13,416 nucleotides of DNA from Deltaproteobacteria bacterium (GTDB taxonomy: Bacteria; CG2-30-53-67), in the NCBI GenBank assembly GCA_013151235.1, contig JAADIO010000012.1, forward strand, positions 1 to 13,416, read 5' to 3'. Positions 2,343-7,558 of the stretch are shown piece after piece (position 1 is the stretch's first letter; the number at the start of each line of letters is the position of its first letter). The notes beneath the pieces were generated by a model. It did no database searches. It was not told where the DNA came from and saw only the letters and a list, made by a program, of their open reading frames with translations. The translations under genes were made by a program, and so were the position numbers.

Positions 2343-2369
2343 AATACACCTCATTGAGCGGTATGTCAA
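2341..2369 (-). promoter_or_regulatory. Sigma70-type promoter of vapBC
   Basis: On the minus strand a perfect -35 TTGACA (2364-2369) is followed by a 17-base spacer and a -10 TATTAT (2341-2346). The -35 box overlaps the stop codon of the upstream LPS-kinase-like gene, so vapBC can be transcribed independently of the glycan genes. Confidence 0.7.
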
Positions 2370-3271
2370 ACCAATCCTTTCCGCCTCTCGGCAGCTCCGC
2401 GAATCGGCTTAGCCGGCCCCCTGCGGGCCAGCATCTTTTCCGTATGGGCGGCAATACGGAGGGTCTTGCTCTCGATCTTCCGGATCAGGTCCTTATCCAA
2501 TTCCGTCAGCCTCGTCCGCCCCAGGTAGGCATGGATAAACCGCATCCGGTCGGTTCGGGTCAGACAGGAAAGCTGCAAGGCCGAGAAGTTGATCTGGGAG
2601 AGGTCCTTGAGGATACGGGAGGAGCGCGGTCGGCGGCTTTCCCGTACCCGCTGCAGATCGATCAGGTGGAGCGTGAAAGCATCATCGTCCGGCTGGATGA
2701 AGATGTGCCCGAGATAGAAATCCTGGTGGTAAAAACCGTTCCGGTGGAACCTCGCCGCCCAGCAGGCCGTCTCACTGATGATCCGCCGTTTGTATGCAAG
2801 TACCTTCCGGGAGAGGGGCGGCCGACCGAACCGGTCTGGCAGGAAATGTTCGAGCTTCTCCGCACCGTAGAGATGCTCCGTTACGGTAATCTCTCGATAG
2901 GGAAGTCCCCACTTCCGTACGGACCCGAAGGCGACCGGCGTCATGGTATGGATCCCCAATTCCTCCAGGCGGAGGATCTTCTCCCACTCGTTCTTCGCGC
3001 CGTCCCGAATGGCCAGACCGGTGAAGATCGACTTGAGCCGCGTCTCAAGGGGAGGGAAGTGCCGCTTGACATGCAGGATATGCTCTTTCCCGGCCCGGTC
3101 CTGCAGGGTTATCCGGTAAACGGAACGGAATCGGTTCTTCTTGAACTGCTCGCCGCCGGGATAATCGTAGAGACGGGAGAAAGAGGCAAGACCGTTGCGG
3201 TCGAGAAGGTCCAGAAAGGCGGGATGGATGGAAAGTCCATCCTCCCGGGTGAAGTCAATGGGCGTCATCAT
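2366..3271 (-). CDS. LPS core sugar kinase (WaaP/KdkA-type, InaA family)
   Basis: Cytoplasmic eukaryotic-kinase-fold protein, about 301 residues, expected to phosphorylate a heptose or Kdo of lipopolysaccharide core with ATP. Numbering from the ATG at 3271: the ATP-binding Lys is Lys69 in ILHVKRH, the helix C Glu lies in KNEWEKILRLEELGI, the catalytic loop is HRNGFYHQDFYLGHIFI with Asp184, and the metal-binding Asp is Asp205 in LIDLQRVR. The RILKDLSQINFS segment is also typical of WaaP relatives. Start uncertain: a TTG at 3289 has GAGGAG directly against it (no spacing), whereas the paired ATGs at 3271 and 3268 follow GAGAAG. The gene indicates an LPS-bearing outer membrane. Its exact acceptor (heptose or Kdo) cannot be told. 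Confidence 0.85.
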   Translation of the reverse strand: MMTPIDFTREDGLSIHPAFLDLLDRNGLASFSRLYDYPGGEQFKKNRFRSVYRITLQDRAGKEHILHVKRHFPPLETRLKSIFTGLAIRDGAKNEWEKILRLEELGIHTMTPVAFGSVRKWGLPYREITVTEHLYGAEKLEHFLPDRFGRPPLSRKVLAYKRRIISETACWAARFHRNGFYHQDFYLGHIFIQPDDDAFTLHLIDLQRVRESRRPRSSRILKDLSQINFSALQLSCLTRTDRMRFIHAYLGRTRLTELDKDLIRKIESKTLRIAAHTEKMLARRGPAKPIRGAAERRKGLV

Positions 3272-3364
3272 CTTCTCGGTTGCGATCAACTCCTCATCTT
3301 AATGGGAAAAAGAAACATTTGAACTTCCGCTGGGGGAGAGGGAGAGGGGGGGGAATCTTGGCTG

Positions 3365-3406
3365 CTACAGGAACTCCCTGAAACAGGGAATCGTTTTTTA
3401 CAGTCC
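3365..3406 (-). pseudogene. Relict second copy of the decarboxylase gene 3' end
   Basis: These 42 bases match 37 of 42 positions of the UDP-glucuronate decarboxylase gene end at 4008-4049, in the same orientation and including the stop codon. Read in that frame it gives G-L-stop-K-T-I-P-C-F-R-E-F-L-stop against [13 protein letters not shown]-stop. Three of the five differences are silent, one is Tyr to Cys and one turns Gln into a stop. The silent bias suggests descent from a diverged functional gene, followed by decay. The copies are 643 bases apart and bracket the DUF4258/YgiT-type pair. Confidence 0.75.
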
Positions 3407-3411
3407 ATCTC

Positions 3412-3648
3412 TTATGCAGACAAAGTGGTGATTTCAACCGTATTTTGCTTCTCACGAGCTCTTTCAACGATTTTTTCAAGTTTAGAAGCAATAGAATCGT
3501 TAATCCAATCCGCGCCACACTGCGAACAAACCGTTGCAGGCACCTGACGAACCACTACAACACCGAATCCCATATCAACGGTAAATGTAGTTTTCCCGGC
3601 TTTCTTGTGTCCCCCACACAAAGGACATTTTCCCGGCGATTGATTCAT
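3412..3648 (-). CDS. YgiT-type zinc-finger protein (probable antitoxin)
   Basis: Small protein of 78 residues with two zinc-binding pairs, Cys8-P-L-Cys11 and Cys41-S-Q-Cys44, separated by a beta-rich segment with GFGVVVVRQVPATVC. This is the YgiT-type (MqsA N-terminal-like) zinc ribbon. The C-terminal helix (SIASKLEKIVERAREKQ) could contact the partner. Unlike full MqsA it has no C-terminal helix-turn-helix domain, so direct DNA binding is not evident. An AAGGAG lies 8 bases before the ATG, and the start forms an ATGA overlap with the stop of the upstream DUF4258 gene. The toxin-first order is common for DUF4258/YgiT pairs. Its antitoxin role is inferred from family and neighbour. Confidence 0.86.
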   Translation of the reverse strand: MNQSPGKCPLCGGHKKAGKTTFTVDMGFGVVVVRQVPATVCSQCGADWINDSIASKLEKIVERAREKQNTVEITTLSA

Positions 3649-3959
3649 CTTAATCTCCTTGTTTTGTAATCTGCCTTAAAGTGCTCAAGATCCGGTCTGT
3701 AGGCAGTTATGACAAAAACGCAATCAGAGTTCGCATCATAAGCGGCCACAACATGAAAGGGCTTTTTCGCAATCCACCCGAGGAACAGCCCGGACGGCAA
3801 TGGCTTGTCATCAGGATACATCTCAATTATCTCCCCAGATGACAAAACTTCTTTAACAATCGTCGTCGAAATCCCCCGTTGCAACATACGTTCAAGTGCA
3901 TGTCTCTGCCACTCTATCCGTTTTTTCTCTACTGACTTCCTAATTCTATCAATGTCCAT
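3645..3959 (-). CDS. DUF4258 protein (probable toxin of a TA pair)
   Basis: Basic protein of about 104 residues. It matches the DUF4258 pattern: WQRHALERMLQRGIS near the start, then VKEVLSSGEIIEMYPDD, a central strand PFHVVAAYDANSDCVFVITAYRPD, and a charged C-terminus. The fold is thought to resemble small RelE/MqsR-like RNases, and the family usually pairs with a YgiT-type zinc finger as here. I chose the ATG at 3959; TTG codons at 3971 and 3965 extend it in frame, and the 3965 TTG has AGGA at a suitable distance, so the start is not settled. The following gene overlaps its stop (ATGA). The pair is wedged between two copies of the decarboxylase gene end, which suggests acquisition as a unit. 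Confidence 0.85.
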   Translation of the reverse strand: MDIDRIRKSVEKKRIEWQRHALERMLQRGISTTIVKEVLSSGEIIEMYPDDKPLPSGLFLGWIAKKPFHVVAAYDANSDCVFVITAYRPDLEHFKADYKTRRLR

Positions 3960-3976
3960 TGACAATCGCAATTCCT

Positions 3977-3985
3977 ATTATCTCA
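3977..3985 (-). promoter_or_regulatory. Possible extended -10 of the DUF4258/YgiT pair
   Basis: On the minus strand TGAGATAAT gives a TG-n-GATAAT extended -10 shortly upstream of the DUF4258 start. No convincing -35 is seen at the usual distance, and the leader would be very short, so this is tentative. Confidence 0.3.
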
Positions 3986-4007
3986 CAACATACATCCTGC
4001 GTGGATC

Positions 4008-4958
4008 CTAAAGGAACTCCCTGAAATAGGGGATCGTTTTTTGCAATCCTTCTTCAAGAGTGACTCCCGGTTCCCACCCGAGATGTTTCTTCGCCAACGA
4101 GATGTCCGGTTGCCGCCGCACCGGGTCGTCCTCCGGGAGGGGTTTATAAACAATCTTCGACTGCGAGCCGGTCAGTTCAATCACCTTCTCCGCCAATTCC
4201 AGGATCGTAAATTCCACGGGATTGCCCAGGTTGACCGGTCCGGTGAATTCATCAGGGCTCTCCATCAGTCGGAGAAACCCCTTGATCAGGTCATCAACGT
4301 AACAGAAACTTCGCGTCTGACTTCCATCCCCGTAAATCGTAATATCCTCACCTTTCAGGGCCTGTATAATAAAATTGCTCACTACCCGCCCGTCGTTGGG
4401 ATACATATTCGGACCGTAGGTGTTGAAGATCCTGGCCACCTTAATGGGCAGGTTATGCTGCCGCCGGTAATCGAAGAAGAGCGTCTCGGCACACCGTTTT
4501 CCCTCATCATAACAGCTTCGATGACCGATCGGATTGACGTGGCCCCAGTAATTCTCGATCTGGGGATGGACCTCCGGGTCGCCATAGACCTCGGATGTCG
4601 AGGCCTGGAAGATCTTCGCCCGCACCCGCTTGGCCAGGCCCAACATATTGATCGCTCCATGAACGGAAGTCTTTGTCGTCTGAACCGGGTCGAACTGGTA
4701 GTGAATCGGAGACGCCGGACAGGCCAGGTTGTAGATCTCGTCCACCTCCACGTAGAGGGGGAAAGTCACGTCGTGGCGCATCAGCTCAAATGCCGGATTC
4801 GCAATAAGTTCCGCTACATTGGTCCGCCGGCCGGTGAAAAAATTGTCCACACAGAGAACCTCATGCCCTTCATGCAAAAGCCGTTTACAAAGATGGGAAC
4901 CGAGGAAGCCTGCCCCACCTGTGACCAGAACCCGTTTCGTGGAATCATAGTTTTTCAT
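4008..4958 (-). CDS. UDP-glucuronate decarboxylase (UDP-xylose synthase)
   Basis: Extended SDR enzyme of 316 residues that oxidises C4 of UDP-glucuronate with bound NAD+, decarboxylates it and normally re-reduces it to UDP-xylose. The nucleotide-binding motif is GGAGFLG (14-20). The active site carries Thr121-Ser-Glu123 in [14 protein letters not shown], and Tyr150/Lys154 in CYDEGKR. The catalytic Arg region PVRRQPDI (near 281), [10 protein letters not shown] and [17 protein letters not shown] are hallmarks that separate this family from ordinary epimerases. Length is normal and nothing is missing. An AAGGAG lies 10 bases before the ATG, with a GC-rich hairpin just upstream of it. It follows the 4,6-dehydratase gene, so the two are probably co-transcribed. 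The UDP-glucose dehydrogenase needed to supply UDP-glucuronate is not in the window. Confidence 0.95.
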
Positions 4959-5084: not shown

Positions 5085-7037
5085 CTACTGCTCCCGTACC
5101 GTCCCGATGGACGCCCGGCTTTCCTTACGGGTTTTCGTCTCGGATAAGAGATCCGGGAGGGCATCTCGGTAGGATTGATCATAGGAGGGAACAAGGTCCT
5201 GTAACAGGTTCCTGATTTCGGCCCAACGTTGCTGAGCAATCAAATCCTGGAACAAGAGTACCTTCGAATGAAAATGCTCGGAATCATGGAAGTCTTCCCG
5301 TACCACAAAAATCTTCGGATGGAGGGTCCGGACCGAACCCTCCTCGTCGGTCAAAAGCTCCTCATAAAGCTTTTCCCCGGGCCGGACGCCGGTATAGACA
5401 ATCCGGATATCCACATCAGGTTCCAGACCGTTGAGCCGGATCATCTCCCTGGCCATATCGACGATCTTGATCGGGTCCCCCATATCAAGGAGGAAAACCT
5501 CCCCCCCCTCCCCCATGGCAGCAGCCTGAAGGATCAGGATACATGCTTCGGGAATACTCATGAAATAACGCTGCATCTCTTTGTGCGTCACCGTTACCGG
5601 ACCACCGTTTCGAATCTGCTCTTCAAAGATCGGGATGGCGCTTCCCCGGCTCCCGACAACGTTCCCGAACCGGACGGAGCTGAAGAGCGTCCGCCCCTGG
5701 GCATTGAGTGTTTTGACAATTTTCTCGGCTACCCGTTTGGAGGCCCCCATCACGTTCGTCGGATGGACGGCCTTGTCCGTTGAAACCATCACGAATTTTT
5801 TCACCCCGCAGGCAATGGCCGTCTCCGCCACAATCTTTGTCCCGAAGATATTGACCTTCACCGCCTCCTCGGGATACCGTTCCATCATGGGAACATGCTT
5901 GTATGCCGCCGCATGAAAAACAAAATCCGGAATGTTATCCTGAAAAACCGTCTCGATCTTCTCGCGGTCCCGGATGTCCGCCACTACAGGCAGTACGGAA
6001 GTTCCCCCCTCTCTTCCGCATAACTCCAGTTCGATCCTGTGCAGTTCGGTCTCATCCGTATCCAGGGCAATAATCTTCCCCGGCCGGAACACCAGTAACT
6101 GCCGCACCAGTTCCGAGCCGATCGACCCGCCTGCCCCCGTTACCAGTACGCTTTTCCCCCGTAGGAAGTCAGTCACCATCTCCACATCGATCGTCGCCTG
6201 TTCCCGTCCGAGGATATCTTCAATGCGGATCTCCTTGATATCGGACAGTGATACATTCCCATAAACCAGTTCGTTCAGACCGGGAATGATCTTGACCTCG
6301 CCCACACCGGACCGCCTGACGAATCCGAGGATTTCCCGGATCTGCACGGAAGAAGCGGAAGGAATCGCAATCAGTACAAGATCAATATCCAGGCGCTTCA
6401 CCACGGAATCGATCCCGCTGCGTCCACCGCACACCTTGATCCCCTGAATAAAGACCCCGGCCTTTGCCGGATCATCATCAATAAATCCCACCGGAAGATA
6501 TGGACAATCCTTCTGCCTCCGCATATCCCGCACGATCTGTTCACCGGCATTCCCGGCGCCGACAATCAAAGTCCTTTTCCTGCCGCCTCTATGCATCCCG
6601 CTCCGTGTCTGACAATAGACCCGTTTCGACGAGCGGAACATCACAATCAGCAACAGGGTCAGGACCGAATCCATAAAGGGGATGGAGCGGGGATAGCCCT
6701 GGAAGAGCCGGTGGGTCCAGAACATGAAGATCAACCCCATCAGAACGAGGAAGCTGATCGTCACCCCCTTGAGAATGTCGATCAACTCATAGAATCCTAC
6801 ATAGGACCAGCTCATTTTATACATGCGGCAGGAATAGAAAACAGCGTATTTCACCAGAATGAAAACCGGAAGAGACCAGTAAAATTGCTGTAATGCCCGC
6901 CCCGTCATCACCCCGTCGAAGCGGAGCATAAAGGCAAGGTAGAGCGACAGGGCAATGAGCACGCCATCGCCCAAAAGAAAAAACAGGGTCCGATTGAGTG
7001 TTGTCCTTTTGAGGAAAGCAGATCCGGGCATCTTCAT
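5085..7037 (-). CDS. Membrane-anchored NDP-sugar 4,6-dehydratase (PglF/WbpM/CapD type)
   Basis: Full-length 650-residue enzyme of the nucleoside-diphosphate-sugar dehydratase family that usually turns UDP-GlcNAc into a UDP-4-keto-6-deoxy-HexNAc. Four N-terminal hydrophobic segments (about 17-38, 54-70, 88-108, 120-136) anchor it. A first Rossmann-like domain follows (LIVGAGNAGEQIV, 157-169), then the catalytic SDR domain with TGAGGSIGSE (300-309). The active site is the variant Ser-Met-Lys triad: Ser419 in VSTDKAVHPTNVMGASKR, Met430 in place of Tyr, and Lys434, as in WbpM and relatives. FGNVVGSRGSAIPIF and GVRPGEKLYEELL complete the family pattern. An AAGGTGA precedes the ATG, and a good promoter lies at 7101-7128. 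Its product would feed the DegT aminotransferase upstream. The exact hexosamine is not readable from sequence. Confidence 0.95.
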   Translation of the reverse strand: MKMPGSAFLKRTTLNRTLFFLLGDGVLIALSLYLAFMLRFDGVMTGRALQQFYWSLPVFILVKYAVFYSCRMYKMSWSYVGFYELIDILKGVTISFLVLMGLIFMFWTHRLFQGYPRSIPFMDSVLTLLLIVMFRSSKRVYCQTRSGMHRGGRKRTLIVGAGNAGEQIVRDMRRQKDCPYLPVGFIDDDPAKAGVFIQGIKVCGGRSGIDSVVKRLDIDLVLIAIPSASSVQIREILGFVRRSGVGEVKIIPGLNELVYGNVSLSDIKEIRIEDILGREQATIDVEMVTDFLRGKSVLVTGAGGSIGSELVRQLLVFRPGKIIALDTDETELHRIELELCGREGGTSVLPVVADIRDREKIETVFQDNIPDFVFHAAAYKHVPMMERYPEEAVKVNIFGTKIVAETAIACGVKKFVMVSTDKAVHPTNVMGASKRVAEKIVKTLNAQGRTLFSSVRFGNVVGSRGSAIPIFEEQIRNGGPVTVTHKEMQRYFMSIPEACILILQAAAMGEGGEVFLLDMGDPIKIVDMAREMIRLNGLEPDVDIRIVYTGVRPGEKLYEELLTDEEGSVRTLHPKIFVVREDFHDSEHFHSKVLLFQDLIAQQRWAEIRNLLQDLVPSYDQSYRDALPDLLSETKTRKESRASIGTVREQ

Positions 7038-7186: not shown

Positions 7187-7220
7187 ACAAATTACTCAAT
7201 ACATTGAGTAATTTTACTCA
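7187..7220. repeat. Palindromic repeat P1
   Basis: Core is a perfect inverted repeat, ATTACTCAAT and ATTGAGTAAT separated by AC (7191-7212). A third half-site TTACTCAA follows at once (7214-7221) and pairs with the second arm as well. The 34-base unit matches P2 at 30 of 34 positions, with the first 16 bases identical. Confidence 0.7.
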
Positions 7221-7278
7221 AAGAAACAACATTGATGAAGTCGTAAAAAGTCGTTTTACGGAATATCAATCACTTACA

Positions 7279-7337
7279 CCGTTCGCCCTGAGCAGGCCTG
7301 TGCTGAGTTTATCGAAGCATCGAAGGGCCTTCCGAAC
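7279..7337. repeat. REP-like compound element
   Basis: Begins CCGTTCGCCCTGAGC and ends TCGAAGGGCcttccGAAC, with a second degenerate CTGTGCTGAGTTTATCGAAG unit inside. It belongs to the same family as the palindromes at 402-570. Confidence 0.65.
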
Positions 7338-7372: not shown

Positions 7373-7555
7373 TTACGCTGAAGACTTGATCGCCTCAACA
7401 GAAACCTTGTACCCCAACCTGCACAAGTATTCGTGGCAATCGTCCCAGGTAAGACCGAATTCCTTGACATCAGCCAAACCGATATGTCTCAGGATATCCC
7501 CGACACCATTTTTACATATTTGCCACAAATTACTCAATACGTCGAGTATTTTCAC
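7373..7555 (-). CDS. Weak 60-codon open frame, unknown
   Basis: GTG-started frame of 60 residues containing GVGDILRHIGLADVKEFG and YLCRLGYKVSVEAIKSSA. It starts inside palindromic repeat P2. No ribosome binding site is evident and I recognise no family. It may be a remnant of a larger gene rather than a living one. Confidence 0.2.
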   Translation of the reverse strand: MKILDVLSNLWQICKNGVGDILRHIGLADVKEFGLTWDDCHEYLCRLGYKVSVEAIKSSA

Positions 7556-7558
7556 TCA
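7525..7558. repeat. Palindromic repeat P2
   Basis: Second copy of the 34-base unit, 338 bases from P1 in the same orientation. The inverted repeat is weaker here (TACTCAATAC against GTCGAGTA), consistent with decay of one copy. Confidence 0.65.

Follow-up and report, generated by a model that had tools for sequence, protein, structure and literature searches.

A predicted toxin–antitoxin pair between two copies of a gene 3' end: possible insertion with long target duplication

How does a small gene pair come to lie between a gene and a second, non-coding copy of that gene's own 3' end? The question is raised by a 13,416-nucleotide stretch of DNA from a Deltaproteobacteria bacterium, referred to here in its full length as the window, in which the end of a UDP-glucuronate decarboxylase-like (UXS-type) gene recurs a short distance downstream. 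The gene lies on the reverse strand (4008–4958) and encodes an extended SDR of 316 aa (Pfam GDP_Man_Dehyd / Epimerase). Its last 42 bases (4008–4049) are repeated in direct orientation at 3365–3406 with 37 of 42 positions identical, as the first-pass annotation had correctly reported. No other pair of 42-nucleotide stretches in the window, at offsets of 5 kb or less, matches as well (runner-up, 34/42), and 40 sequences simulated by a first-order Markov model with the dinucleotide make-up of the window reached 31 at most. At its full extent the repeat covers 4002–4053 in the upstream copy, which comprises the UXS 3' end with its stop codon, and 3359–3410 in the downstream copy, both read on the reverse strand, with 44 of 52 positions identical and a spacing of 643 bases. 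The downstream copy is a non-coding relic with an internal stop, reading DGL*KTIPCFREFL* in the gene direction, and its similarity to UXS is confined to 52 nt. A 30-base core, allowing up to 3 mismatches, occurs at two sites only in the 2.62-Mb, 73-contig genome, namely the two repeat copies, ruling out a dispersed genomic element. No inverted repeat was found at the ends of the unit. Read in the gene direction, six differences separate the copies, of which three are silent and one introduces the stop, in agreement with the silent-site differences and internal stop described earlier. The further proposal, that the second copy derives from a diverged homologue, goes beyond what these sites can establish (P 0.09–0.21), since with only six differences neither such an origin nor an imported end is proven in the window.

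The interval between the copies holds 48 non-coding bases and a pair of genes with a 4-base overlap, neither of which is of the recombinase kind. The first is a predicted DUF4258 toxin of 104 aa (3645–3959, reverse strand, ATG at 3959–3957; PF14076, E 6e-24) and the second a predicted YgiT-type zinc-finger antitoxin of 78 aa (3412–3648, reverse strand; TIGR03831, E 1.5e-11, above the cut-off); the relic starts 1 base past the antitoxin stop codon. The first-pass annotation had named this pair as the content of the unit and had seen no recombinase; family models identify both genes, and Pfam/NCBIfam scans of the window's main genes found no recombinase family and no integrase. Judged by family models alone, the cargo would be an addiction module. 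An AlphaFold model of the toxin, built with 18 homologues (pLDDT 86), has as its top PDB match E. coli MqsR bound to MqsA/YgiT (3hi2; E 8e-4, TM 0.60/0.67), followed by RelE and then HigB. An MqsR/RelE-like (BECR) fold is predicted, and on this model the pair is MqsRA-like. A 2025 survey places DUF4258 in the RelE/ParE superfamily as a family of unknown activity and lists DUF4258–MqsA fusions (PMC11980606). As in MqsR–MqsA (YgiT), the toxin gene comes first and is overlapped by that of a YgiT zinc-finger antitoxin; unlike in that system, the toxin belongs to a separate Pfam family, with a function that is predicted only, and the antitoxin, at 78 aa, is too short for the C-terminal helix-turn-helix domain of MqsA. 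Pfam/NCBIfam scans of the antitoxin returned the YgiT finger and no helix-turn-helix match.

The next gene downstream encodes a Kdo/WaaP-type lipopolysaccharide kinase (2366–3289, reverse strand; PF06293), and upstream of UXS a family scan identified a Polysacc_synt_2 (PglF/CapD-like) gene (5085–7037, reverse strand). The remaining scanned genes belong mostly to a surface-polysaccharide cluster. A second toxin–antitoxin (TA) pair lies behind the Kdo kinase (1676–2313) and consists of a FitA/VapB-like RHH antitoxin (2062–2313) and a PIN/VapC toxin (1676–2071); no direct repeats of at least 24 nt bracket it. Elsewhere in the window, copies of a CCCTTCGACACGCTCAGGGCGAACGGA repeat occur in both orientations at 70–571 and 7276–7293, beside a small GIY-YIG gene (70–378), and look like a dispersed repeat of many environmental genomes. 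The gene-poor stretch upstream of the PglF-like gene holds a 34-nt direct repeat (88%; 7187–7220 and 7525–7558) with internal symmetry (TTACTCAATACATTGAGTAA).

The first-pass annotation had suggested a search for further DUF4258/YgiT pairs next to duplicated gene ends, and such pairs were found. A scan with a YgiT alignment yielded 45 loci in many phyla, and more were taken from 395 genomes of one phylum. A repeat was called when a direct repeat scoring at least 45 was shared by the 600 bp upstream and the 600 bp downstream, and same-size pseudo-cassettes within the same loci served as controls. With windows that overlap, related genomes that are not fully independent, other TA genes in some control stretches and TA pairs that may favour repeat-rich regions, the comparison gave flanking direct repeats at 12 of the 57 distinct DUF4258–YgiT pairs with enough flank, versus 25 of 674 controls (OR 6.9, p 7e-6), and at 9 of 38 ParE pairs, with toxins from 61 genomes of the 395-genome phylum, versus 11 of 967 controls (OR 27, p 7e-9). 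Mismatched flanks shared such repeats in 0.16% of cases. Since ParE pairs show the enrichment too, the effect is not specific to DUF4258.

These repeats measure about 28 to 283 bp, their copies are not identical, most lineages have no repeat sequence in common and the targets are unrelated. The repeat is a gene 3' end in at least five cases: UXS in the window; a GDP-mannose-epimerase-like gene beside a DUF4258–YgiT pair in a Bacteroidota genome (locus L103; 207 bp); tex (283 bp) and alaS (50 bp), both identified by family model; and a MoeA-like gene, recognised by reading its sequence, where the repeat spans 64 bp with the stop. The downstream copy starts within about 13 bases of the pair's end in the window, in the MoeA-like case and at alaS. 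The epimerase gene of L103 has relatives in three other genomes, the closest of which lacks the toxin and has an end resembling the downstream copy; this is suggestive of a downstream copy that is the native end, on fewer data than at tex. The epimerase-like gene itself (L103:3409–3719) apparently lacks its N-terminal third, and all 20 of the 20 differences between its two 3' ends fall in the first half of the repeat. Silent differences between copies are in significant excess at tex, at the epimerase and at a small DUF5647 gene. This excess was not taken to prove an imported end, since an intact copy under purifying selection would show it equally.

The presence and absence of a pair could be compared directly at tex. 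In the Nitrospirota genus of genome G144, tex is found in 61 of 79 genomes, and a ParE pair lies behind it at four of the 30 loci examined (G144, G364, G257 and G151, from four species), these carriers showing 94–97% identity over 600 bp. G364 has a tex-end relic at +668 to +936, and from +937 onward the sequence is that found directly after the tex stop in the TA-less genomes G476, G379 and G504. The downstream copy is thus the native end, as it is still joined to the native downstream DNA of TA-less relatives. The upstream tex gene of the carriers ends in TAA with a common following sequence, versus TAG in the six TA-less genomes aligned, and because of this difference the upstream end, in its last portion at least, came in with the pair. 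The relic starts at the identical position in G144, G364 and G257, for which reason the tex pair looks like the result of a single insertion event; no relic was found behind tex in G151. The upstream tex ends of different carriers resemble different TA-less species, which points to probable homologous recombination within tex. For L232 and L233, identity is 98.3% in the tex tail versus 91.7–95.1% in the rest.

The data presented above have led us to propose a model for the window, to which we give a probability of roughly one half, whereby the pair entered, or re-entered, at the UXS 3' end through recombination, as an insertion with long target duplication and no recombinase of its own. By analogy, we infer that the window arose like the tex locus. 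The pair would have arrived joined to a UXS end that preserves the reading frame, leaving the old UXS end 643 bp downstream as the 52-nt relic. The machinery would be ordinary homologous recombination, either one-sided or through a circle (Campbell-type); the variable repeats, the lack of a recombinase and the imported end at tex fit recombination anchored in the neighbouring gene. If recombination between the repeats excised the pair, the cell would lose its antitoxin and be poisoned, so that addiction would retain the pair, and such counter-selection of deletion could explain the persistence of repeats around TA pairs.

The history of the locus in relatives constrains this model. The phylum comparison set comprised eight genomes including that of the window, and UXS is absent from the other seven at E<=1e-60; no relative with UXS and without the pair, that is, an empty site, is found among the eight. 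PglF-like and Kdo genes mark the corresponding locus in G002, which belongs to the same family and another genus, and in G004. In G002 the PglF-like gene is followed by a VapBC-like pair on the opposite strand, then by an AAA/DUF4143 ATPase gene, YgiT and the Kdo kinase; about 30 bp separate YgiT from Kdo, and the locus has no UXS, DUF4258 or relic. In G004 the YgiT gene has been deleted except for what seem to be its final codons and stop, which follow a stretch that G004 otherwise has in common with G002. A tree built from the DNA of 62 YgiT genes makes that of the window sister to that of G002 (100/89), whereas the protein tree leaves this grouping unresolved. Because the two genes group in the DNA tree and both adjoin Kdo, the antitoxin probably stood beside Kdo before the two genera split. 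Fourfold sites between the genera are saturated (0.33 identical in PglF), and a relic that had evolved neutrally since then could no longer be recognised, so that the duplication of the UXS tail, with its relic still 88% identical, has to be much younger than the antitoxin's residence beside Kdo. Between the PglF-like gene and Kdo, each relative has its own TA genes together with a DUF4143 ATPase (L054:3835–4517 and L055:1674–2347), and the interval may be a spot of TA turnover inside the polysaccharide cluster. Relatives of YgiT in viral contigs amount to one weak match.

These sister-genus data make a local duplication around a resident pair a serious rival, one that we regard as possible. 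The pair would already have stood upstream of Kdo when the genome acquired UXS next to it. The UXS end and the TA genes would then have been duplicated in tandem over 643 bp, and loss of the second, redundant TA copy would have left the relic; from then on, addiction would block collapse between the repeats. A YgiT gene directly upstream of Kdo in a genome that has neither UXS, toxin nor relic, the apparent YgiT remnant in G004, the sister relation in the DNA tree, the young relic and the confinement of UXS to the window's genome among the eight all fit this history. It requires a duplication and then a deletion erasing every trace of the second TA copy, and it leans on a sister relation that the protein tree does not recover; in addition, TA-less relatives predominate at tex, which would favour insertion as the general process. 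Insertion, for its part, needs a re-introduction of the pair, since the antitoxin was already beside Kdo in the other genus; the source would be a relative in which the pair had stayed there. The cassette insertion restoring the reading frame that was proposed in the first-pass annotation thus holds in kind: TA pairs are repeatedly bracketed by duplicated gene ends, and at tex the comparison with TA-less relatives shows a pair that brings an end preserving the reading frame and displaces the native end downstream. It is less certain at the window, where the antitoxin probably stood beside Kdo earlier; the interpretation is, overall, partly supported.

It is unlikely that the relic is the remainder of a second, once complete UXS gene, left by paralogs, tandem or acquired, that stood on either side of the TA genes and decayed. 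The stop and amino-acid changes of the downstream copy resemble a decaying gene end, and in L074 a DUF4258 pair is indeed flanked by whole-gene duplicates; against this, the similarity breaks off at 52 nt, and the relic begins immediately behind the antitoxin. More improbable still is a site-specific integrative element of the tyrosine-recombinase type, mobilised in trans and using the UXS 3' end as its att site. Elements that target icd or tRNA genes do enter at gene 3' ends and restore the frame, a likeness that had been drawn earlier for this unit, but the likeness fails on the repeats around TA pairs, which vary in length, differ between copies and are mostly unrelated between lineages, and on the window, which has no recombinase. 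The pair was moreover present at 0 of the 30 UXS loci fetched, ruling out the UXS 3' end as a TA hot spot, and the genome holds only two copies of the repeat. Chance similarity is excluded by the simulations, whose maximum the match exceeds (37 versus 31 of 42). An assembly error is very improbable: this is a draft genome in which the window is one whole contig, but a misassembled duplicate would not be expected to show the 8 mismatches in 52 positions that separate the copies.

A different arrangement was seen in several Nitrospirota-type genomes, where small gene pairs follow one another with a direct repeat of roughly 80 bp (core TTTTTCATCTGCTGCGGGAAG) between them. Most of these pairs can be recognised as TA modules (VapBC, MazF-like, HigA, DUF4258/YgiT, MNT/HEPN and HicAB). 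Up to five or six copies occur in 7 kb, often downstream of a recurring TPR gene (L084:2860–6414; also L074, L071, L075, L081, L127, L145–L149 and L152). These may be integron-like TA arrays. No integrase was found in the array stretches read, no attC-like symmetry of the R repeat was noticed by eye, and the roughly 80-bp repeat is absent from the window's genome.

Several known systems resemble parts of the proposed process. Prophages and islands at the 3' ends of icd, trmE and dusA supply a new gene end and displace the native end to their far side, as proposed here; these elements are large and have an integrase and a fixed core, unlike the window unit of about 0.6 kb with no recombinase and the variable repeats around TA pairs. 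A small chromosomal TA islet between conserved genes is also known from E. coli, where ccdAB lies between folA and apaH in some strains only; unlike at the window, there is no flanking direct repeat and the intergenic DNA is replaced. Tried as a positive control, ccdAB thus showed no repeats, so that not every pair enters this way. Where ccdAB sits there, apaH has a different end and measures 849 bp instead of 843 bp (L184, L185, L186), and E. coli strain SX48 has a different folA–apaH insert with another CcdA.

A close parallel is found in restriction-modification (R-M) systems. Furuta and colleagues are said to have described, in 2010, insertion with long target duplication of R-M genes. As with those genes, the window unit would be of the addiction type, has no transposase and is flanked by a direct repeat of target sequence; R-M systems show long, variable direct repeats of the order of 100 bp and a polymorphic presence and absence like that seen at tex. 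Unlike in R-M insertions, the cargo here is a type II TA pair, the repeat is often a gene 3' end, and the upstream copy at tex, with its different stop and following sequence, is partly imported. It was in Helicobacter that insertion with long target duplication was described for R-M genes (Nobusato et al. 2000, Gene 259:99, as reported in PMC1643837, which shows an example). A review states that some R-M systems have target duplications that are long and of variable length (PMC3874152), and protection of DNA from deletion by addiction is an established idea, the stabilisation model (PMC2654758). Within the literature searched, which included few subscription papers, no report was found of long target duplication for TA pairs with an imported gene end.

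When chromosomal TA pairs without a recombinase move, the usual explanation is that another element carries them. We tentatively suggest, as an idea that may well prove too broad, that type II TA pairs of unrelated families form a wide class of recombinase-free mobile units. Such units would spread by recombining within the last part of an adjacent gene; each would carry in a functional gene end, turn the native one into a relic and be locked in place by lethal excision, and the relics would form a readable footprint of TA movement across many bacterial phyla. Should such a gene-end footprint mark at least a fifth of the members of some TA families, TA movement would become datable and traceable, and the prevention by addiction of deletion between direct repeats would become directly testable.
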